Part shown: in pieces, positions 1-7,212 of the stretch
Position numbering within the stretch: position 1 is the stretch's first letter
Layout of the letters: each line of letters opens with the position of its first letter
The notes under the pieces: generated by a model
Told to the model about the DNA's origin: nothing
Database searches by the model: none
Seen by the model: only the letters and a program-made list of their open reading frames with translations
Origin: Pseudomonadota bacterium
GTDB taxonomy: Bacteria > Pseudomonadota > Gammaproteobacteria > Halothiobacillales > Halothiobacillaceae
DNA: 7,212 nucleotides
NCBI GenBank assembly: GCA_021795795.1
Contig: JAJYPA010000427.1
Location: forward strand, 1 to 7,212
Direction of reading: 5' to 3'
Made by a program: the position numbers and the translations under genes

Positions 1-132
1 GCATCTCTTCCAGGCCCTCAAGCTTCCGAAACCGACCCGCGACGCCCAGATGACCCTGCTGTAGTGGCAATTTTTTAACCGGCATCAATAAAAACAACAG
101 GTTGGCGCGGTTGGCGTCGAACTCCGGGGCGC
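1..132. other. Unassigned left-edge stretch with short open frames
   Basis: No gene is recognised here. On the plus strand a frame entering from outside the window gives HLFQALKLPKPTRDAQMTLL and stops at TAG 62-64; reading past that stop gives WQFFNRHQ before TAA. On the minus strand a frame is open from about 132 to the window edge (containing FDANRANLLFLLMP). Either could be the end of a gene lying to the left, but I cannot tie them to a family. The stretch abuts the broken end of an IS5-type transposase near 133, so it may be the sequence that replaced the rest of that element. Confidence 0.3.
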
Positions 133-435
133 CTGCGAACTCTGCCTCAGCCCCACGAAACGCTGGAAGCTCAGTCAGTCCAGAAGCTGGAACTCCATCT
201 GCTCGTCGCTGAGGTTGTAGAGCTGCTGGATCACCAGAACCCGAACCATCAATTCGGTCGGAAATGGCGGCCGTCCGCCACGCTCGCGGCCAGGCCGGGG
301 CGCTGCCTCGTCGATCTCCGCGGCCAGCGCCGAGAAGTCCACATGCGTCGCCAGCTTGCCCAGCGCGTCCCCGATCTTGTCCAACTTGGTCTCGCGTTCC
401 TGCTCCGCGAATAGACTGACCTTGATCACCACCAT
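133..435 (-). pseudogene. IS5-family transposase, 5' fragment with nonsense mutation
   Basis: This is the N-terminal part of a DDE transposase of the IS5 family (IS4 superfamily, DUF772-type N-terminal domain). The visible family signature is SLFAEQERETKLDKIGDAL near the start, followed by HVDFSALAAEID, GGRPPFPTELMVRVLVIQQLYNLSDEQMEFQLLD. The frame stops at TGA (175-177) exactly where the family continues with Arg: read through, it gives LSFQRFVGLRQSSQ, as expected, so a single CGA-to-TGA change explains the stop. Family-like sequence then ends near 133, so the catalytic DDE part is absent. The start at 435 (ATG, residues MVVIKVSLF) fits the usual position just before the SLF/EQE motif. No clear terminal inverted repeat or target duplication could be assigned. 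The gene is dead twice over, by nonsense mutation and by truncation. Confidence 0.85.
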
Positions 436-491
436 GCCCTCGTCACGTCATGCAGACCACATCATGCCTGCGCCGCCGCGCGACGGCCAGG

Positions 492-740
492 TTTTTCGAG
501 GTGCCCCACAGTCTGGAAAACATCGCCCCCCTGCTGGAGCGCCTGCAACTGGATCTGGACGTGCCCTATACCCTGTCCGACACGGTGTTGTGGCAATGCC
601 CGATCAGCATGGGCATCACGCTCTACCCCGACGACAACGTCGACGCCCAGGGCTTGCTGCGGCATGCGGAGCAGGCCCTGGGCGAAGTCAAGACGAACAA
701 GGCGCAGCGCGAGAGCTTCTGGGGCGTCTACGGGCAGTAA
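492..740 (+). pseudogene. GGDEF-type (diguanylate cyclase-like) gene, 3' fragment
   Basis: The reading frame ending at TAA 738-740 encodes the C-terminal half of a GGDEF domain. The diagnostic strand-turn motif CPISMGITLYPDDNVD is followed by the helix LLRHAEQALGEVKTNKAQRESFW, which corresponds to the family's SIGVxxYP...LLRxADxAMYxAK region. The catalytic GGDEF signature and everything before it are missing. Family-like sequence begins about 492 (FFEVPHSLENIAPLLERLQ). Upstream bases read as low-quality MQTTSCLRRRATAR, which I take to be non-native sequence at the junction with the IS5 fragment. The fragment cannot make cyclic di-GMP. The gene was probably broken by the IS insertion or a later deletion. 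It converges on the PAS-GAF gene with only 47 bases between their stops. Confidence 0.7.
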
Positions 741-787
741 GTAGGCCCGGCTTTAGGTGGCGTATAAGGCACCCAGTGGAGTAAAAG

Positions 788-1837
788 TTATTGGATTAAT
801 TGATGACCTGGCCTCTTGGAAAATATTTGACTGTAACGATTTGCGCCAAATATCCGCATAACAACAATCTCATGAGCCAAATCATTGGCTAGTTCCTGCA
901 GGAGTACATAATCCTCGACAGGCAGGGTCCCGGGCGTTGATCCATAGATCGTTAAGCATCCTCTCAGATTTGCGGAGTGTTGAATGGGCAAAGCAATGAC
1001 TGATGCGTACCCGAACCTTGCCGCGGCGGCTCGCCATGGCGTCATTGAAGGATCGGTAGAGATATTTTCAACGTTCTGTATCTCTCCTGTCCTGATCGCG
1101 GTGAGGGTAGGGCCACTGCCATATGTAGTTTCTGCCCATGCGATGGGGGCAAGCACATGAGAGCCGTGCATATCACCATATTGTGCCAAGGGTTGCACAT
1201 ATTTCGGGCGTCCATCCTTCGCAAAAGCGATCCATGCCATTCGATAACCGCCGGTTTCGACAATCACCCGGCAGACTTCGCCGAGGATTTTCTGTTTGTC
1301 CGAGACCTGGAGCAACGTGGAATGGCCGTCCTGGACGACCTTAAAAGCGCGCGCACTTGCTCTGAGCGCAGTATGCGCCATGACTCGCGTGGTGATGTTG
1401 CGAAACTCGCAGGCAATCATGGCAAGTCCATCACAATCGTAGGTATGCAGTGATAATTCAACCAAGATACGTCGACCATCCTGCATTTGCAATGGAAGAT
1501 TATCGTATCGGATGTACTCCTGCTCTTGCAGATTCGAAAAGATCTCTTCGCTCAGCCGACTGTCTTTGAACGCATCGATATCCCAGAACTTTTTCCCGAG
1601 CAGCGCTTCCCGTGTGTAGCCAAGCATTTGAGCCAGACAGAGATTGGCATCTTCGACTTGTATCGTCGAGGCGTTCAAAATCAGCAAACCCTCCCGGATG
1701 GCTTGAAAATGACACCGATAGCGGACCTCCGCGCCCGATGACGGGGCCATCTCAGGATTTGGAATTTCTGCTCCATTTTCCAAATTTCCCCCCAAGAAAC
1801 GGCGACGCAGCAATTCAAATTTTGATATGAAGCCCAT
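788..1837 (-). CDS. PAS-GAF sensor protein without an output domain
   Basis: A 349-residue predicted cytoplasmic sensor. Residues about 40-155 resemble a PAS domain (HFQAIREGLLILN, ANLCLAQMLGYTREALLGKKFWDID, and a closing strand IACEFRNIT). A short helical linker (TALRASARAFKVVQ) follows, then a GAF domain at about 175-330 (VCRVIVETGGYRMAWIAFA, YGSGPTLTAIRTGE, YASVIALPI, LTIYGS, LLQELANDLA). Such PAS-GAF modules normally precede a GGDEF, EAL or histidine-kinase output domain. Here the protein ends about 20 residues after the GAF, so it is either a truncated signalling protein or a stand-alone ligand/redox sensor. ATG 1837 is preferred over GTG 1846, because AGGAG (plus-strand 1846-1850) lies 8 bases before ATG 1837 and overlaps the GTG. 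No transmembrane segment is seen. Base composition appears more AT-rich than in its neighbours. The GGDEF remnant lies just beyond its 3' end but on the other strand, so it is not simply this gene's lost output domain. Confidence 0.85.
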   Translation of the reverse strand: MGFISKFELLRRRFLGGNLENGAEIPNPEMAPSSGAEVRYRCHFQAIREGLLILNASTIQVEDANLCLAQMLGYTREALLGKKFWDIDAFKDSRLSEEIFSNLQEQEYIRYDNLPLQMQDGRRILVELSLHTYDCDGLAMIACEFRNITTRVMAHTALRASARAFKVVQDGHSTLLQVSDKQKILGEVCRVIVETGGYRMAWIAFAKDGRPKYVQPLAQYGDMHGSHVLAPIAWAETTYGSGPTLTAIRTGEIQNVENISTDPSMTPWRAAAARFGYASVIALPIQHSANLRGCLTIYGSTPGTLPVEDYVLLQELANDLAHEIVVMRIFGANRYSQIFSKRPGHQLIQ

Positions 1838-2113
1838 GACCCACACTCCTGAGCGAAATTACTCTCGGAATACATTGATCGGCCCACTGCAGGATGTCGC
1901 GAGAACCGGGTATGCCCTGATACTCACCATCTATTTTTCATGCTTGGAGACAATTTGAAGGGGAAAAAGCACAGGCATGGTTAACCGTAGTGTCGTCAAG
2001 TCTTTGCGATCAGAGGGACGTCCCAGTGAAAGATGTGTTGAGCGCTGGCACGCTGTCGTGTTGTCATTTCTCGACATTTTTTCCCCGTTGCGCCTGCTCG
2101 CTTGCAAGCCACA

Positions 2114-2142
2114 TTGACCATCATCCATGATGGTGGGATAAT
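2114..2142 (+). promoter_or_regulatory. Sigma70-like promoter for the beta-barrel gene
   Basis: TTGACC (2114-2119, 5/6 to consensus) and GATAAT (2137-2142, 5/6) are separated by exactly 17 bases. Transcription would start near 2149-2150, giving a leader of about 100 bases before ATG 2252. Two dyads overlap it: ACCATCATCCATGATGGT (2117-2134) and the 17-bp operator-like site at 2133-2149. This is prediction from sequence only. Confidence 0.65.
2117..2134. promoter_or_regulatory. Inverted repeat overlapping -35/spacer
   Basis: ACCATCATCCATGATGGT is a perfect 7-bp inverted repeat with a 4-base centre. It starts inside the -35 hexamer and fills most of the spacer of the barrel promoter, a typical position for a repressor site. 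No matching protein can be named. Confidence 0.45.
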
Positions 2143-2149
2143 TTACCAC
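2133..2149. promoter_or_regulatory. Operator-like site, 14/17 match to the 5217 palindrome
   Basis: GTGGGATAATTTACCAC matches the perfect palindrome GTGGTAAATTTTACCAC at 5217-5233 in 14 of 17 positions without gaps. The right half TTTACCAC is identical and the left half is degenerate. It covers the -10 box and predicted start site of the barrel promoter, so a bound protein would probably block transcription. A search by eye of the rest of the window found no third good copy. Confidence 0.5.
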
Positions 2150-2192
2150 GCAGAAGGTCCTTCGACAAGTCCCTTTCTGTCACCATCGAAAG

Positions 2193-2222
2193 CTGGCCAC
2201 TTTGGTTGTCGGATGTGGCCAG
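2193..2222 (+). promoter_or_regulatory. Leader hairpin upstream of the beta-barrel gene
   Basis: CTGGCCAC (2193-2200) and GTGGCCAG (2215-2222) form a perfect 8-bp GC-rich stem with a 14-base loop in the predicted 5' leader, ending about 18 bases before the ribosome binding site. A smaller dyad, GAAGGTCCTTC (2153-2163), sits at the start of the leader. The stem is not followed by a T-run, so it is unlikely to be an intrinsic terminator. It could stabilise the mRNA or control translation. No known riboswitch class is recognised. Confidence 0.45.
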
Positions 2223-2251
2223 ACCTCATCCTTCTTATTAGGGAGAAACGT

Positions 2252-3028
2252 ATGAAACTTCGTCAGGCAATCACGGCATCCATCCTGCTCACGGGCGGAA
2301 CACTCGCACATGCCGACCCGGCCCTTACGGCGGGAGCTTCGCTTTCCTTTTTCCAGGGCACGTTTGGCACGAACAGCAACATCGACATCCGATACGACTC
2401 CACATACGTCCAGTATGGGGACACCAACTGGCGGGTCAAGCTGATGGTTCCCTATGTTTCAGAAAGCGGACTCCCCAACGGGGCAACGCTCTCGGGCGGT
2501 GCCGTTGTCGGGGGAAGCGGGTCATCTCAAACCCATTCTGCGAGTGGCCTCGGGGATGTCTGGCTATCGAGTCATTACAAAATTTATCCAGGGTCCGGCC
2601 TGATGCCTTCAATCTCCCCTTATGCCAAGATTAAATTCGGCACCGCTTCTGCTGCGGATGGGCTGGGCACGGGGCGTAACGATTACGAAGTCGGCCTTGG
2701 GTTTCAGCAAACGATCGGCACTACATTGTTTCCGTTCGCGAATATCGGTTACCGCAAGGTTGGGAATCCCACGGGACAACACCTACGCAACATCGCGACC
2801 TATCAATTGGGGGCAAGCTATGTTGTCACCCAACGCAATATCTTCTCCGCCCTGTTCTCTGGCTCCCAGGCCATCACAGCAGGGGCTGCCGCGCCGGCCG
2901 ATCTGATTTTGGCCTGGAACTACAACGTTACCCAGGCCGGCAGTGGCTTTCAGTTCTATGTGGACAAAGGGCTCAGCAATGGAAGCGCCAACTATGGCGT
3001 GGGCATCGGCGGGCAAATCGTGTTCTGA
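2252..3028 (+). CDS. Outer-membrane beta-barrel protein (phenol-degradation MetA-like/transporter type)
   Basis: A 258-residue exported protein. Residues 1-21 form a signal peptide (MKLRQAITASILLTGGTLAHA, cleavage before DPAL). The mature part alternates polar and hydrophobic residues in many short beta strands with Gly/Asn/Ser turns: WRVKLMVPYVS, GLGDVWLSSHYKIYP, SPYAKIKFGTA, NDYEVGLGFQQTIG, FPFANIGYRKVG. It ends in GIGGQIVF, with the C-terminal Phe typical of BAM-assembled barrels. The GLGD and FPFANIGYR-like patterns recall the 'MetA pathway of phenol degradation' outer-membrane family (PF13557-like), whose members are poorly characterised and thought to aid uptake of hydrophobic substrates. 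No aromatic-degradation gene is nearby, so the substrate is unknown. ATG 2252 is chosen over 2102 because GGGAG (2241-2245) lies 6 bases upstream and a clean signal peptide begins there. It has its own promoter at 2114. Confidence 0.8.
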   Translation: MKLRQAITASILLTGGTLAHADPALTAGASLSFFQGTFGTNSNIDIRYDSTYVQYGDTNWRVKLMVPYVSESGLPNGATLSGGAVVGGSGSSQTHSASGLGDVWLSSHYKIYPGSGLMPSISPYAKIKFGTASAADGLGTGRNDYEVGLGFQQTIGTTLFPFANIGYRKVGNPTGQHLRNIATYQLGASYVVTQRNIFSALFSGSQAITAGAAAPADLILAWNYNVTQAGSGFQFYVDKGLSNGSANYGVGIGGQIVF

Positions 3029-3038
3029 TCATATAGTC

Positions 3039-3157
3039 CGCGTCCTGGAGAGCGCCCCCAGGCCGCCGCTTTGCAGCGGCTGCCCCCGAGGGGGATGAGA
3101 AAACTTGGGGCGGCCCTGCGTTTTCTCATGAGGGGAATGCACGCTCTCCCGGACGCG
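3039..3157. repeat. Nested palindromic intergenic element, probable bidirectional terminator
   Basis: The whole gap between two convergent genes is built of nested inverted repeats. Outer arms CGCGTCCTGGAGAGCG (3039-3054) and CGCTCTCCCGGACGCG (3142-3157) pair at 15 of 16 positions. Inside are three further dyads: GCCGCT/AGCGGC (3065-3080, 4-base loop), CCCCC/GGGGG (3083-3094) and ATGAGAAAAC/GTTTTCTCAT (3095-3104 with 3120-3129, perfect 10 bp, 15-base loop). It starts 11 bases after one stop codon and ends 5 bases before the other gene's stop codon on the opposite strand. The placement fits a terminator for both genes. The architecture resembles mobile palindromic repeats (REP/BIME or MITE-like) frequent in GC-rich betaproteobacteria, though whether it recurs in this genome cannot be seen here. 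Confidence 0.75.
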
Positions 3158-3161
3158 TCAG

Positions 3162-4367
3162 CTAACGATACATGGCAGGCGGTGACGTAACGTTCGGCGG
3201 CTGAACCATGGGCATAGCAGGGGGGGGCACGCTAGGAGCCTGGAAGGTCGGTGCGGTCATGCTTGGGGCCTGGTAGGTCGGCGCGACCACTTCTGGAGAC
3301 GTCATGGCAGGGATTGCGTCCCTGCGGCCTGGCACGTCCGCGCCCGTTTGTGGTGGCAGTCCATAGCTCATCGGCAAGACGCCAACGATGATCTGATCGG
3401 CAGCAATTGTCTCCGGTGTGGCGAGCGTGCCGTGAATGACAACGAGATCTCCAGCACGCAAATGTGTGGCAGCACCGCCGTCGAGTAACTGCGCCTGCCC
3501 CCCCTGCACAAGGAAACCGTCGCAACTCCACCCTTGCGACGTCCGCTGCAGATACCCGACGAGCTGAATCCGGCTGCCGACCACCCCGACATCGTGTGGG
3601 ATGGGGTCTATGGTCCGTACGGTCGGTACTCCATGCACGTAGGCGCCCCGCACGACAACATCCTGGCCAACAGCCAAGTCTTTTGACGGCGCGGGCCCGG
3701 CCGATAGCCATGTGCCATTGATTTGGATGGTGTGCGCATCAGGATCAATCGCCTCAATGCGTCCACGCAAGAGCATCGGGATCGACTTTTGCTGGGCATG
3801 TTTCGGGATCTGTGCGACGCGCAAGGCCTGCCACCGCCCGTCCGCCTGATGCAGCGCACTGACCTCCACCAAGTCTCCCTCCTGCAGTGCAGATGCCGGT
3901 AACACCGCTTCCGTCGCGGTGCGCACGAGCGTTGCTGCATCGATCTGGATCGTCTGGCCCAGGACTGTGAAGTGTGAGCCCCCTGTGTCGACATGGGTAA
4001 TCAGGCCGATGACGGCATGCTCGATCCTTACATCCTGCGCAACGGGCTTGCCATCGGCAAGGGTCGCGCGTACCGTCACCAGATCGCCGCGATGCAGAGA
4101 TTGTTCGGTGCTTGCAGTGCCATCGACTGCATAACGAGTCTGCGCAGAAAGGGCATATTCCTTGCCATTGACAAAGATGCTGCCGAATCGCTGGATCGGG
4201 CCGATCGCCACAATCCCCGTCCCCCCGATCCCTCCGGGGTCGATCCCGGTGCCGCCAATTCCGCCCGGATTCCCCGCCACCGCGCCGGGGCTGGCCAGCA
4301 TGAGCAATCCCAGCACGGCGGCAAGCGTGCTTGCAACGACGGCCCTCAATCGATTAGTCATTCTCAT
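3162..4367 (-). CDS. Exported DUF5666-family protein with Pro-periodic tail
   Basis: A 401-residue predicted envelope or secreted protein. Residues 1-31 form a signal peptide (hydrophobic LAAVLGLLMLA, cleavage after AVA). A doubled GGIGGTGI motif follows (residues about 35-52), a hallmark at the N-terminus of DUF5666 proteins. Four beta-rich repeats come next at about 53-125, 126-195, 205-275 and 275-345, each with an 'FGSIFVNG'- or 'GRIEAIDPDAHTIQING'-type strand pair and a 'GDLVxVxG' strand. The last 44 residues (coded by 3165-3296) are Pro-rich, with VAPTYQAPSM and TAPTFQAPSV as a tandem 10-residue repeat. The biochemical function of DUF5666 is unknown. ATG 4367 is preferred over 4397 because GGGGG lies just upstream, the signal peptide is then compact, and the overlap with the upstream DUF6502 gene is a 14-base coupling overlap instead of 44. 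ATG 4361 is also possible. Co-transcription with DUF6502 is very likely. Confidence 0.85.
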   Translation of the reverse strand: MRMTNRLRAVVASTLAAVLGLLMLASPGAVAGNPGGIGGTGIDPGGIGGTGIVAIGPIQRFGSIFVNGKEYALSAQTRYAVDGTASTEQSLHRGDLVTVRATLADGKPVAQDVRIEHAVIGLITHVDTGGSHFTVLGQTIQIDAATLVRTATEAVLPASALQEGDLVEVSALHQADGRWQALRVAQIPKHAQQKSIPMLLRGRIEAIDPDAHTIQINGTWLSAGPAPSKDLAVGQDVVVRGAYVHGVPTVRTIDPIPHDVGVVGSRIQLVGYLQRTSQGWSCDGFLVQGGQAQLLDGGAATHLRAGDLVVIHGTLATPETIAADQIIVGVLPMSYGLPPQTGADVPGRRDAIPAMTSPEVVAPTYQAPSMTAPTFQAPSVPPPAMPMVQPPNVTSPPAMYR

Positions 4368-5190
4368 GCGTGCCCCCGTTGTCTTCTGGAATCTCATCCG
4401 ACGTCCGATCTTCTTCGTAGTAATAAATGCCCAGACGCATGCGCCGGCGCGGCCTGTTTGGATCTGGACCCTCGGCCTTGGATACGCGCTGATGGGCCTC
4501 TTGGAGAAGACGCGTTCCCATCGCTCTCAGATCACGGCGTACGCCCTCCATCGCGTCAGCCGGCAAATCCTCAAAATAGACGGCCTGCTCCAAGTAGGGC
4601 TCTGCGCCCTCCATGTTGTGCACTGCGCTTTGCAAATGATCTCCAACGTTGGCCCCCAGAAAGGCCACGCGGTCGTCGGAAAGGTCCGAGACATAGCCAC
4701 TGCGCACCAAGCGCACGTTGTCACCATCCAAAACGACGACACCCGCTCGTAGCAGGTCATCCAAGATGGTTCTAGGGCGCATATCGGCCTTCACGAGCTT
4801 GACCAAGCCCTCAAAACTGGGCATGCCTTCTGCACGCAGCGGTAAGACTCTGGGCATTCCTGCCGGATCCCGATAGGCCTCGCTTGCGCTCCACGCGGCC
4901 ACCATCTGGGCCGCGACGTTGGCCCCGTGCCGCAGCGCAATGCGTCCTGGAGCGGCGTGCAGTTCCAGACGTAGCCGGCGAACCTCCTTGCGATGAATGC
5001 CGCTGAGCAGACTGATCCGACTATCGGTCAATGGGCGGCCGTTGATCTGCCCGTAGTGACGGATGGCTTCACCCACATAGACGAACTTGAGCAATTCCGC
5101 CAAGGCGCCATAGGTCCAGCCTTGCCCGATCAGATAGCGCACAAAAGGGCGCAGGATGGACAGTGCAGCGGATTTGAGCGCCTCGTTCAT
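4354..5190 (-). CDS. DUF6502-family putative HTH regulator
   Basis: A 278-residue soluble protein. The N-terminal 75 residues carry the family pattern: LSILRPFVRYLIGQGWTYGALAELLK, then FVYVGEAIRHYG, then a helix-turn-helix-like stretch PLTDSRISLLSGIHRKEVRRLR (residues 53-74). A middle winged-helix-like segment follows (SFEGLVKLVKADMRPRTILDDLLRAGVVVLDGDNVRLV), then a helical C-terminal half and a charged, Arg- and Glu/Asp-rich end (PNRPRRRMRLG, YYEEDRTSDE). DUF6502 proteins have no assigned biochemical role. DNA binding is inferred from the helix-turn-helix-like region and from the gene's place at the head of the operon. The next gene starts inside its last codons (14-base overlap), implying translational coupling with DUF5666. 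No good Shine-Dalgarno lies before ATG 5190 (the bases there are CCTCCTCCC on the coding strand), but the family N-terminus supports this start. Confidence 0.8.
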   Translation of the reverse strand: MNEALKSAALSILRPFVRYLIGQGWTYGALAELLKFVYVGEAIRHYGQINGRPLTDSRISLLSGIHRKEVRRLRLELHAAPGRIALRHGANVAAQMVAAWSASEAYRDPAGMPRVLPLRAEGMPSFEGLVKLVKADMRPRTILDDLLRAGVVVLDGDNVRLVRSGYVSDLSDDRVAFLGANVGDHLQSAVHNMEGAEPYLEQAVYFEDLPADAMEGVRRDLRAMGTRLLQEAHQRVSKAEGPDPNRPRRRMRLGIYYYEEDRTSDEIPEDNGGTHEND

Positions 5191-5211
5191 GGGAGGAGGA
5201 TACGTGAAGAG

Positions 5212-5239
5212 TTGACGTGGTAAATTTTACCACTAAGAT
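5212..5239 (+). promoter_or_regulatory. Promoter of the repeat-protein gene
   Basis: TTGACG (5212-5217, 5/6 to the -35 consensus) and TAAGAT (5234-5239, 4/6 to the -10 consensus) are separated by 16 bases. The spacer is almost entirely the perfect palindrome at 5217-5233. The predicted leader to ATG 5320 is about 75 bases. On the opposite strand TAAAAT (5229-5224) could be a -10 for the divergent DUF6502 gene, but its -35 is poor. Confidence 0.6.
5217..5233. promoter_or_regulatory. Perfect palindromic operator-like site
   Basis: GTGGTAAATTTTACCAC is an 8-bp perfect inverted repeat around one central base. It lies between the -35 and -10 boxes of the plus-strand promoter, 27 bases upstream of the divergent DUF6502 start codon. 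This is a classic position for a dimeric repressor acting on one or both divergent genes. A 14/17 relative occurs at 2133-2149. The DUF6502 protein is the obvious but unproven candidate binder. Confidence 0.65.
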
Positions 5240-5319
5240 AGACATAGATGCAGATCAGAGATCACAAGGATCCCTGGGACGGCATCGACTTCCTTCACTC
5301 TCTTTTGGAGCAATACATC

Positions 5320-6081
5320 ATGTCTACTGCAAAGAAAGTTTCCTATCTGTCCGCCCTTGCTGCCGCCATTCTTGCCATCTCTGGGGCGGACCATGCCCAA
5401 TTGGCTCACGCAGCCAACGGCGATCCCGGCGTGGCCCAAGCAACGCAACGCGCCAATGCCAACGCCCAGAACGGCCTAGCGACGGCGCAGATCGATGAGT
5501 CTTCCATGGCTGGTGCTGGCGTTGGTGCTGGCGTTGGCGTTGGTGCTGGCACTGGCACTGGCACTGGCACTGGCGCTGGCGCTGGCGCTGGCGCTGGCGG
5601 AGCGCAGGTCGATGGAGCCGTCAAAGCAGCTATCGGTCAACAGGTGAAAGAAAGGGGCCGCCTCGCCGTAAGCCCGGCGCAAGCCAATTCCAATGAGGTG
5701 TCCTCATCTGGCACATCGCATACTGTACCGGCAGCACGTATGACGCAGGAATCCAAAGCCGCAGACGCATACAGCGCGGCTTTCAAGCCCGTCGGCCAGG
5801 ACCAAAACGGACAGAAAGCTGTGGCTACGCAACCCGGTGCGACAGGCGCGCTCTCCGTGACGGATAACCACACATCTGCCGTGCAGGCGCCGACCATGAC
5901 CGGTAGCACCGATCGCACCTCGAGTGTGACCGTGCCCGCGGTGACCGCTCCGGCCGTGACCGTGCCCACGGTGACTACTCCGGCCGTGACCGTGCCCGCG
6001 GTGACCACTCCGGCCGTGACCGTGCCCGCGGTGACCACTCCGACCGTGACCGTGCCGAGTGTGCAGCGTCCCAGCATGTAA
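5320..6081 (+). CDS. Exported low-complexity protein: (Gly-X)15 tract and VTVPAVTTPA repeats
   Basis: A 253-residue protein of unknown family. Residues 1-31 are a signal peptide (MSTAKK, then hydrophobic LSALAAAILAIS, cleavage after LAHA). After a short Ala/Asn/Gln-rich segment comes a 30-residue Ala/Val/Thr-Gly alternation (coded 5509-5598), then a polar linker of about 110 residues rich in Ala, Gln, Ser and Thr. The C-terminal part has four and a half copies of a 10-residue unit like VTVPAVTTPA (5926-6060) and ends VQRPSM. There are no Cys residues and no transmembrane anchor, so it is likely a flexible periplasmic, surface or secreted structural protein. ATG 5320 follows TTGGAG (5305-5310) by 9 bases and starts the signal peptide. 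The in-frame ATG at 5248 lacks both. It is divergent from DUF6502-DUF5666 and shares the Pro-every-five-residues tail style with the DUF5666 protein. Confidence 0.8.
   Translation: MSTAKKVSYLSALAAAILAISGADHAQLAHAANGDPGVAQATQRANANAQNGLATAQIDESSMAGAGVGAGVGVGAGTGTGTGTGAGAGAGAGGAQVDGAVKAAIGQQVKERGRLAVSPAQANSNEVSSSGTSHTVPAARMTQESKAADAYSAAFKPVGQDQNGQKAVATQPGATGALSVTDNHTSAVQAPTMTGSTDRTSSVTVPAVTAPAVTVPTVTTPAVTVPAVTTPAVTVPAVTTPTVTVPSVQRPSM
5509..5598 (+). repeat. In-frame hexanucleotide microsatellite, (Gly-X)15
   Basis: Fifteen consecutive 6-bp units of the form GCT/GTT/ACT + GGC/GGT encode 15 X-Gly dipeptides, with blocks of identical units: four ACTGGC, then four GCTGGC. Because the unit is 6 bp, slippage changes length by two residues and never shifts the frame. 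Near-identical units at the 3' side suggest recent expansion; the 5' side is more diverged. Confidence 0.9.
5926..6060 (+). repeat. 30-bp tandem repeat coding a Pro-periodic tail
   Basis: Four 30-bp units start at 5926, 5956, 5986 and 6016, followed by a half unit at 6046. They are nearly identical (variation at only a few positions) and encode VTVPAVTxPA-type decapeptides with Pro at every fifth residue. Slippage or recombination would change length in frame. Confidence 0.92.
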
Positions 6082-6091
6082 TAACGCTTGT

Positions 6092-6125
6092 CATGCCGTC
6101 TTCAGTTCGCTCTGAAGATGGCATG
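6092..6125 (+). terminator. Hairpin after the repeat-protein gene
   Basis: CATGCCGTCTTCAG (6092-6105) and CTGAAGATGGCATG (6112-6125) pair over 14 positions (13 Watson-Crick plus one G-U in RNA) around loop TTCGCT. It begins 10 bases after the stop codon. The following bases TCTTGCG contain only a few T residues, so it is an atypical intrinsic terminator, or a 3'-end stabilising stem. It would also separate this gene from the FHA gene downstream. Confidence 0.65.
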
Positions 6126-6159
6126 TCTTGCGTGCATCTCTCGCGCAGCGGTCAAGCGG

Positions 6160-6196
6160 CCTCGATTGCAACCACGTCGAGGACTCTATCTATATA
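6160..6196 (+). promoter_or_regulatory. Weak promoter candidate and dyad upstream of the FHA gene
   Basis: The 174-base gap before the FHA gene holds CCTCGA/TCGAGG (6160-6165 and 6177-6182, an 11-base-spaced inverted repeat). TTGCAA (6166-6171) lies upstream of an AT-rich TCTATCTATATAG stretch that could supply a -10 (for example TCTATA 6189-6194 at 17-base spacing). The match is poor and is offered only as the best candidate. Confidence 0.25.
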
Positions 6197-6255
6197 GCCC
6201 GGGTCATCCACACCACTTTCTGGGATTTGCTTCTGTACGGTCCCGCCTTCCAAAC

Positions 6256-6654
6256 ATGAGTACGCTCATCGTTTTTTCCCCCAATGAACCCGACCGCTCT
6301 ATCCAACTCAAACCAGGTCGCCTGCTCATAGGGCGACATCGGCGCAACACCATCGTCTTGCCAGACCCCACAGTCAGCATGGTGCATGCTTTGCTGCAGC
6401 ACACCGAGCCGGGCTGGTGGTGGGTCGAGGATCTGAGCAGCACCAACGGCATCTGGCTCAATGGCCGGCGCGTGCAGATCAGCCTGCTGCTGCCCGGTGA
6501 TACCCTGGAATTGGGCCATTGCATTTTGCGTCTGCTGGCCCCCCAGTCTTTGCAAGAAAACCGAGCATCAGTGGTGCAGAACAACCGGGGCTGGATCAGC
6601 GAGGCCATGACGATCCCCGCTGATTTTGAGTCGACCGACCTCAGCCATCGCTGA
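6256..6654 (+). CDS. Small single-domain FHA protein
   Basis: A 132-residue cytoplasmic protein that is essentially one forkhead-associated (phosphothreonine-binding) domain. All family landmarks are present: GRLLIGR (residues 21-27), the IVLPDPTVSMVHA loop with Ser41 and His44, and VEDLSSTNGIWLNGRRV with Asn64-Gly65 and Asn69. Arg27, Ser41 and Asn64 are the usual phosphopeptide contacts, so binding should be intact. A 35-residue tail without domain features follows (ENRASVVQNNRGW...). FHA proteins act as readers of Ser/Thr kinases, often in secretion or signalling clusters, but no kinase, phosphatase or secretion gene is in the window. ATG 6256 starts just before the first FHA strand. No clear Shine-Dalgarno is visible, and earlier in-frame ATGs (6088, 6118) would run through the preceding hairpin and add an unlikely basic extension. 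Confidence 0.85.
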   Translation: MSTLIVFSPNEPDRSIQLKPGRLLIGRHRRNTIVLPDPTVSMVHALLQHTEPGWWWVEDLSSTNGIWLNGRRVQISLLLPGDTLELGHCILRLLAPQSLQENRASVVQNNRGWISEAMTIPADFESTDLSHR

Positions 6655-6695
6655 CCTGTTTGTGCGATGCGTGCCATTTTCGAGAAGAAGGCCCA

Positions 6696-6727
6696 TCGAG
6701 AACGCGCCCAGGGAGGCGCGTTCTCGA
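6696..6727. terminator. Perfect 13-bp hairpin after the FHA gene
   Basis: TCGAGAACGCGCC (6696-6708) and GGCGCGTTCTCGA (6715-6727) form a perfect 13-bp stem with loop CAGGGA, 41 bases after the FHA stop and just before the IS3 remnant. There is no T-run on either side, so it may be a non-canonical terminator or a palindromic repeat. TTTCGAGAA at 6678-6686 could alternatively pair with TTCTCGAAA (6721-6729), giving a competing fold. Confidence 0.55.
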
Positions 6728-6801
6728 AATCCATGCGTAAGCTCCCCCGCTGAGTAGACAGTCTGAAAATAGAGACTTCCGCATCTTCGAGGAAGAGAGC
6801 G

Positions 6802-6987
6802 ATGAGGAAGTCGAGGTTCACGGAGGCCCAGATCATGTCGATCCTGGGCGAAGGGGAAGCAGGCCTGCCGGTGACGGAGGTCTGCCGCAAGCACGGCATC
6901 AGCACGGCGGCGTACTACCAGTGGAAGAGCAAGTACGCCGGCATGTCGGTCACTTCAGCCTGCGGCCATTGGCCAGGCTATCGCTGA
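6802..6987 (+). pseudogene. IS3-family OrfA (helix-turn-helix) 5' fragment
   Basis: The frame from ATG 6802 (GGAAG upstream) encodes the N-terminal helix-turn-helix half of an IS3-family OrfA: MRKSRFTEAQIMSIL, EGEAGLPVTEVCRKHGIS, TAAYYQWKSKYAGM. OrfA proteins of this group are usually about 85-90 residues and continue with a leucine-zipper segment. Here family sequence ends after about 50 residues (near 6952) and the frame runs into antisense orfB until TGA at 6985-6987. It cannot form a functional OrfA or OrfAB transposase. Confidence 0.85.
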
Positions 6988-7212
6988 CGAAGTCCATGCT
7001 CCACACCTCATTGACGGTCGTGGCCAGTTGCAGCGGCACGCGCTCGGTCGCAGCACGCCGAGCCTTCTTGCGTTTGCGCACGGCGAGATGCGCTTCGCTG
7101 TAGAGCCGGTACACGCGCTTGTGGTTGACGCCGGGAAACGCCGGGCGCAGCAGATCGTGGATGCGCCGATAGCCGAAGCGGCGGCGCACCTGCGCAATCT
7201 CGACGATCTTGC
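6950..7212 (-). pseudogene. IS3-family OrfB (rve integrase) internal fragment, runs off the window
   Basis: The minus-strand frame is open from the right edge: KIVEIAQVRRRFGYRRIHDL, then NHKRVYRLYSEAHLAVRKRKK, then NEVWSMDFVSDSLANGRRLK. It is the N-terminal HTH_21-like region and the beginning of the rve catalytic core of an IS3-family transposase, including the first catalytic Asp in WSMDFVSD. A TGA (6952-6950) produced by the junction ends it right after GRRLK, where the family continues with the rest of the DDE core. The second Asp and the Glu are therefore missing. The upstream part lies beyond the window. Confidence 0.85.

Follow-up and report, generated by a model that had tools for sequence, protein, structure and literature searches.

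A recurrent palindromic operator upstream of DUF6502 genes points to a helix-turn-helix autoregulator in Proteobacteria

The palindromic operator class GTGGGAAWNWTTCCCAC recurs before DUF6502 (PF20112) genes across Proteobacteria and looks, on comparison of sequences, to be foremost an autoregulatory operator of DUF6502 itself. DUF6502 is very probably a helix-turn-helix factor that binds as a dimer to GTGGGAAWNWTTCCCAC and to local variants of it, and that likely represses its own gene together with those of a few exported proteins. A helix-turn-helix is predicted in both AlphaFold models of the family, and the palindrome is conserved at the family's own promoter in 45 of 58 distant loci; the two AlphaFold alignments have members in common, and the two models are therefore not independent. 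Alignment A1 omits L017 and L020. The sites, their placement and conservation, their link to DUF6502 and their covariation with helix-turn-helix residues emerge directly from the computation.

The window, which is the whole stretch of DNA analysed, comprises 7,212 nucleotides (positions 1-7,212). Its DUF6502 gene (4354..5190, minus strand) encodes a predicted helix-turn-helix regulator of 278 amino acids, with helices at residues 56-63 and 67-79, that is a member of PF20112 (E 1.1e-25, 90.4 bits against a Pfam gathering cut-off of 27); residues 4-265 match profile positions 3-268 of 268 and thus the whole domain. Overlapping this gene downstream, in the same operon, is that of an exported-looking DUF5666 protein (3162..4370, minus strand, given start provisional), which matches PF18914 in Pfam at E 7.4e-25. 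The plus strand encodes a beta-barrel-like protein of 258 amino acids (2252..3028), which lies outside any Pfam family with zero matches at E up to 10, and, divergent to DUF6502, an exported-looking repeat protein of 253 amino acids (5320..6081), whose Pfam matches are low-complexity ones only. NCBIfam holds no family for the DUF6502, barrel or repeat protein of the window.

According to Pfam, the cluster is flanked by a PAS-GAF protein (788-1846, minus strand) and an FHA-domain protein (6088-6654, plus strand). A short frame at 450-740 on the plus strand matches only the C-terminal part of GGDEF (profile 96-160 of 161, just below the cut-off) and is apparently a truncated diguanylate cyclase, while an inverted repeat of 22 nt after the repeat-protein gene (6084-6133, 82% complementary, 6-nt loop) is a possible terminator. 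Because transposase remnants are found at both ends of the window, namely a DUF772 remnant (175-435, minus strand, Pfam) and transposase-like reading frames recognised by eye (about 6803-7212), the cluster may sit between insertion sequences.

The predicted operator GTGGTAAATTTTACCAC (5217-5233), in the promoter region between the divergently oriented DUF6502 and repeat-protein genes, is a perfect dyad about one central base and belongs to the class that recurs before DUF6502 in relatives. The second predicted operator, GTGGGATAATTTACCAC (2133-2149), differs from it by 3 mismatches on one strand and by 2 when the opposite strand is read. With up to 3 mismatches allowed, these are the only two places in the window that match (4 strand-wise matches); in 200 dinucleotide shuffles of the window the matches averaged 0.01, and no shuffle reached 4. 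Both operators fall on plus-strand, sigma-70-like promoters that are consensus matches only, with unmapped starts. More specifically, the palindrome fills the -35/-10 spacer of the repeat-protein promoter TTGACG-N16-TAAGAT (5212..5239) and overlaps the last base of its -35, the elements being TTGACG at 5212-5217 and TAAGAT at 5234-5239 across 16 bp or, alternatively, AAGATA across 17 bp. The near copy covers the GATAAT -10 of the barrel promoter TTGACC-N17-GATAAT (2114..2142), in which TTGACC at 2114-2119 and GATAAT at 2137-2142 are 17 bp apart. The DUF6502 ATG (5190, opposite strand) is just 26 bases from the 5217 site, which can therefore serve the divergent DUF6502-DUF5666 operon as well. 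A first-pass annotation of this DNA had described the 17-bp palindrome and its near copy at two promoters, one inside the spacer and one over the -10; the coordinates, mismatches and overlap with these consensus promoters are all reproduced here. Its remark that both positions would suit repression agrees with the normal length of the spacer and with the placement on the -10.

Genome scans were run on relatives of the window's organism. Among close relatives (Thiomonas, Acidithiobacillus, Thiobacillus and others), 14 of 22 DUF6502 loci carry a palindrome with at most 4 mismatches from that of the window, within about 110 bp upstream and often twice; on the other strand the Thiomonas loci read, by eye, TTGACG-operator-TATNAT toward the divergent gene, like the window. 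Upstream regions were also scored by their best match to TGGGAAA-N1..3-TTTCCCA over 14 positions in the 220 bp upstream. In the near group 14 of 17 DUF6502 loci score at least 11/14, and the remaining three, which score 9-10, are apparently second DUF6502 copies in Acidithiobacillus. For the 58 distant loci outside the near group, scores of at least 11/14 were obtained in 45 (the other 13 scoring lower) and of at least 12/14 in 32, compared with 8 and 3 of 984 control tiles from the same loci, 2 and 1 of 232 AT-matched tiles, and 3.7% and 0.2% of shuffles. A chance palindrome is ruled out by the window shuffles, the upstream-sequence shuffles and the control tiles at DUF6502 loci. Where sites are repeated, they are most often 39 bp apart (7 cases over all loci), followed by 34 (4), 28 (4) and 33 (3). 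Azospirillum lipoferum has a perfect site upstream of DUF6502; a Rhizobium plasmid has no site of at least 11/14 upstream of DUF6502 and has one downstream of DUF5666. Three Acidithiobacillaceae genomes (contigs G005:C179, G691:C1 and G694:C1; loci L105, L115 and L201-L204) contain paired DUF6502 genes about 3.6 kb apart, and the second copy in G005 is without a good upstream site.

The genome-wide distribution of the motif was followed with the degenerate pattern GTGGNWWWNWWWNCCAC, which superseded a looser initial pattern, GTGGNNAWNWTNNCCAC, whose matches were mixed; the reversed pattern served as control. In eight Thiomonas-genus genomes, 15 of the 16 matches fall at a DUF6502 promoter, and the control has 0 matches. 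A broad regulon in this genus is rejected on the same count. Over 19 genomes, 15 have a match, with 37 sites in total versus 6 for the control, and the 4 genomes with no match all have distant DUF6502 genes. In sampled genomes, PF20112 is present in 48 of 300 from the order and 21 of 398 from the phylum. The exact form TGGGAWWNWWTCCCA is found in 20 of the 48 DUF6502-bearing genomes versus 35 of the 252 of the order in which DUF6502 was undetected (p 2.8e-5, uncorrected for kinship), its sites in the 300 genomes numbering 68 versus 9 for the reversed control. Within DUF6502 genomes, 16 of 31 TGGGAWWNWWTCCCA sites (in 13 genomes) have a DUF6502 match no more than 250 bp downstream of them. Some of the other matches, in genomes without DUF6502, are of the TGGGATAATATCCCA type and perhaps belong to another factor.

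Relatives of the barrel occur in 16 of 29 Acidithiobacillaceae genomes and 7 of 13 Thiomonas-genus genomes. Of 26 listed barrel loci, 25 were surveyed upstream (L189, a fragment, was left out): 16 carry one that scores 12 or 13 of 14, 8 have no site above 9 and 1 is cut off. All 7 Thiomonas genomes with a barrel have the promoter site, in a weaker form (12/14, GTGTGACACTTTCCCAC class). Among Acidithiobacillaceae with a barrel, its promoter site is present in all 7 genomes that also have DUF6502 (one has an additional, site-less barrel) and in 2 of the 9 in which DUF6502 was undetected (G690 and G692, both with further sites at contig ends). A Thiobacillus barrel is preceded by a perfect dyad (L058:2316) and an annotated Methylocystis barrel by two sites (L170:6041, 6067). 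Furthermore, three loci of distant genomes (L155, L161, L162) group DUF6502 and DUF5666 with a relative of the barrel, and at a fourth (L156) the three lie near each other. For the repeat protein, conservation of the site depends chiefly on the divergent promoter region that it shares with DUF6502. In Acidithiobacillus-like genomes a perfect GTGGGAAAATTTCCCAC stands at six loci before a small exported-looking protein, which has no Pfam family and is probably a further member of the regulon. A broken copy of this small protein is present in L054. One Acidithiobacillus protein was labelled Sel1-like by eye; Pfam yielded no family for it.

The first-pass annotation had envisaged a small envelope regulon of the barrel and the repeat protein, with the DUF6502-DUF5666 pair perhaps included. 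The regulon gains support from site conservation at barrel orthologues and from the distribution of the motif in relatives, and the pair appears to belong to it, the motif occurring foremost at DUF6502's own promoter. The annotation had named two outcomes that would speak against it, a motif at background frequency and a lack of conservation upstream of orthologues; in relatives the matches are rare and concentrated at DUF6502 promoters, and the site is kept before both DUF6502 and barrel orthologues. Comparison likewise speaks well for its proposal that the neighbouring DUF6502 would bind both palindromes.

Direct recognition by DUF6502 predicts that residues and sites should covary, and the distribution of operator variants is consistent with this. 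The helix-turn-helix residues track subfamily, as do the sites, so that the counts are not independent events: of 50 His66 loci scoring at least 11/14, 46 show odd dyads, and Ser/Thr66 loci show even dyads in 6 of 6; with Arg or His at position 58 and His or Tyr at 66, the outer G..C is found on both sides in 65 of 81 sites, on one side in 14 and on neither in 2, and with Ala or Lys at 58 or Ser or Thr at 66 it is found on both sides in 0 of 12 and on neither in 10. Eight more Thiomonas-genus DUF6502 genes all have Ala58, and seven of them are second copies beside an Arg58 gene. Their best upstream dyads, with modest scores of 9-12 of 14 (only 9-10 in five of the eight), keep the outer G..C in 0 of 8 and have A..T in 7 of 8, as in ATGGGAAAATATCACAT. 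The operator thereby differs even between two DUF6502 copies within one genome. These observations bear on the alternative that the palindrome is bound by another transcription factor, which controls DUF6502 and the genes around it, DUF6502 being no more than a target. The exact TGGGAWWNWWTCCCA sites in genomes with DUF6502 undetected, some of the TGGGATAATATCCCA type, may be such a factor's and would favour it; however, outer bases and spacing vary with the helix-turn-helix residues of DUF6502, and Thiomonas-genus sites are almost only at DUF6502, which together make this alternative improbable.

Under autoregulation by DUF6502, we infer direct binding, dimerisation, repression and a response to a signal. 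A DUF6502 dimer would occupy 5217-5233, in the -35/-10 spacer of the repeat-protein promoter and just upstream of the DUF6502-DUF5666 operon, and also 2133-2149 on the barrel -10; once bound, it would keep RNA polymerase off the overlapping promoter elements. Such exclusion of polymerase would make DUF6502 most likely a repressor, and repression of its operon, the repeat protein and the barrel would be relieved by some signal. It is unlikely, though less so than action by another factor, that DUF6502 instead binds these sites as an activator, or activates some promoters and represses others. At many promoters two or three sites lie about 28, 33-34 or 39 bp apart, and cyanobacterial HetR, the closest full-length structural match, is described with positive autoregulation in PMC4649674, both of which are compatible with activation; the sites of the window, in contrast, lie in a spacer of normal length and on a -10, positions that suit repression. 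Least probable is that 2133-2149 is a chance resemblance and 5217-5233 the sole operator. The barrel copy is imperfect and the Thiomonas-genus barrel sites are weaker too, but no window shuffle reached the observed matches, most surveyed barrel loci reach 12 or 13 of 14, and the Thiobacillus and Methylocystis barrels have a perfect dyad and two sites, respectively.

A palindrome-binding autoregulator is of a known kind, and the role of the family, the operator code and the regulon appear to be new. A search of one paper library returned no paper naming DUF6502, PF20112 or 'HetR-like', and in two papers the mentions of DUF5666 are list entries that describe no function. DUF6502, a family without an assigned function, gains a likely role as a transcription factor with a readable operator. 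Its specificity classes can be tied to helix-turn-helix residues and its regulon rule can be used for scanning, while DUF5666 proteins and the associated barrel gain a regulatory context.

Named plasmids from Rhizobium, Azospirillum and Methylocystis likewise carry DUF6502 and DUF5666 side by side. On the Rhizobium and Azospirillum plasmids (L168, L169) the pair adjoins genes for the flagellar hook or for chemotaxis receptors; Rhizobium accounts for 66 of the 75 plasmid records in which DUF6502 has a match. Within the 1 kb that follows DUF6502, 65 of 72 loci encode a glycine-rich motif of the GIGGTG type, 47 of them more than once, as against 8 of 74 upstream control stretches (3 of 75 loci with fewer than 500 bases downstream were left out). 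In DUF5666 of the window (3162-4370) and of other loci the motif is near the N-terminus and often in tandem. HetR is released from DNA by PatS-type RGSGR peptides. Improbable, yet worth stating, is a reading in which DUF6502-DUF5666 would be a proteobacterial counterpart of HetR-PatS: DUF6502 would have the three-domain plan of HetR, and the DUF5666 motif, once cleaved or brought back into the cytoplasm, would release DUF6502 from its operators in an analogous way. If true, transcription would be informed of how an exported set of proteins stands. The GIGGTG-type motifs are a lead for a peptide signal and nothing beyond.

Among known systems, ordinary helix-turn-helix repressors with divergent palindromic operators (IscR, DeoR, IclR-type PcaR, Rrf2 and similar) match DUF6502 only within the helix-turn-helix. 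By sequence, a single DUF6502 protein has three matches in the PDB, at E 0.1 or worse, and the profile none; in Pfam, no family beyond PF20112 matched more than 4 of 75 DUF6502 members (best E 0.0029). The best full-length PDB match of two DUF6502 AlphaFold models is HetR (PF03574 and PF18460; PDB 3QOD, 4IZZ, 4J00, 4HRI, 4YRV), the master regulator of heterocysts in cyanobacteria, which has DNA-binding, flap and hood domains. With E allowed up to 10, Pfam matched neither HetR family to any of the 75 members; hhalign found no sequence kinship (E 0.3-0.5) in what is a weak test, the HetR alignment being narrow (Neff 1.26). An exact equivalence of DUF6502 Arg58 with HetR Arg62 was dropped, the two lying one residue apart in ungapped register. 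The operators also differ, GGG-N5-CCC for HetR versus a GGG-N7-CCC consensus for DUF6502, and four G positions of the HetR site at hetP coincide with the DUF6502 consensus. PMC4649674 describes the HetR plan as a novel one for a regulator of cyanobacterial cell differentiation; if the HetR-like architecture of DUF6502 is true, Proteobacteria would have a relative of that plan or a convergent version of it.
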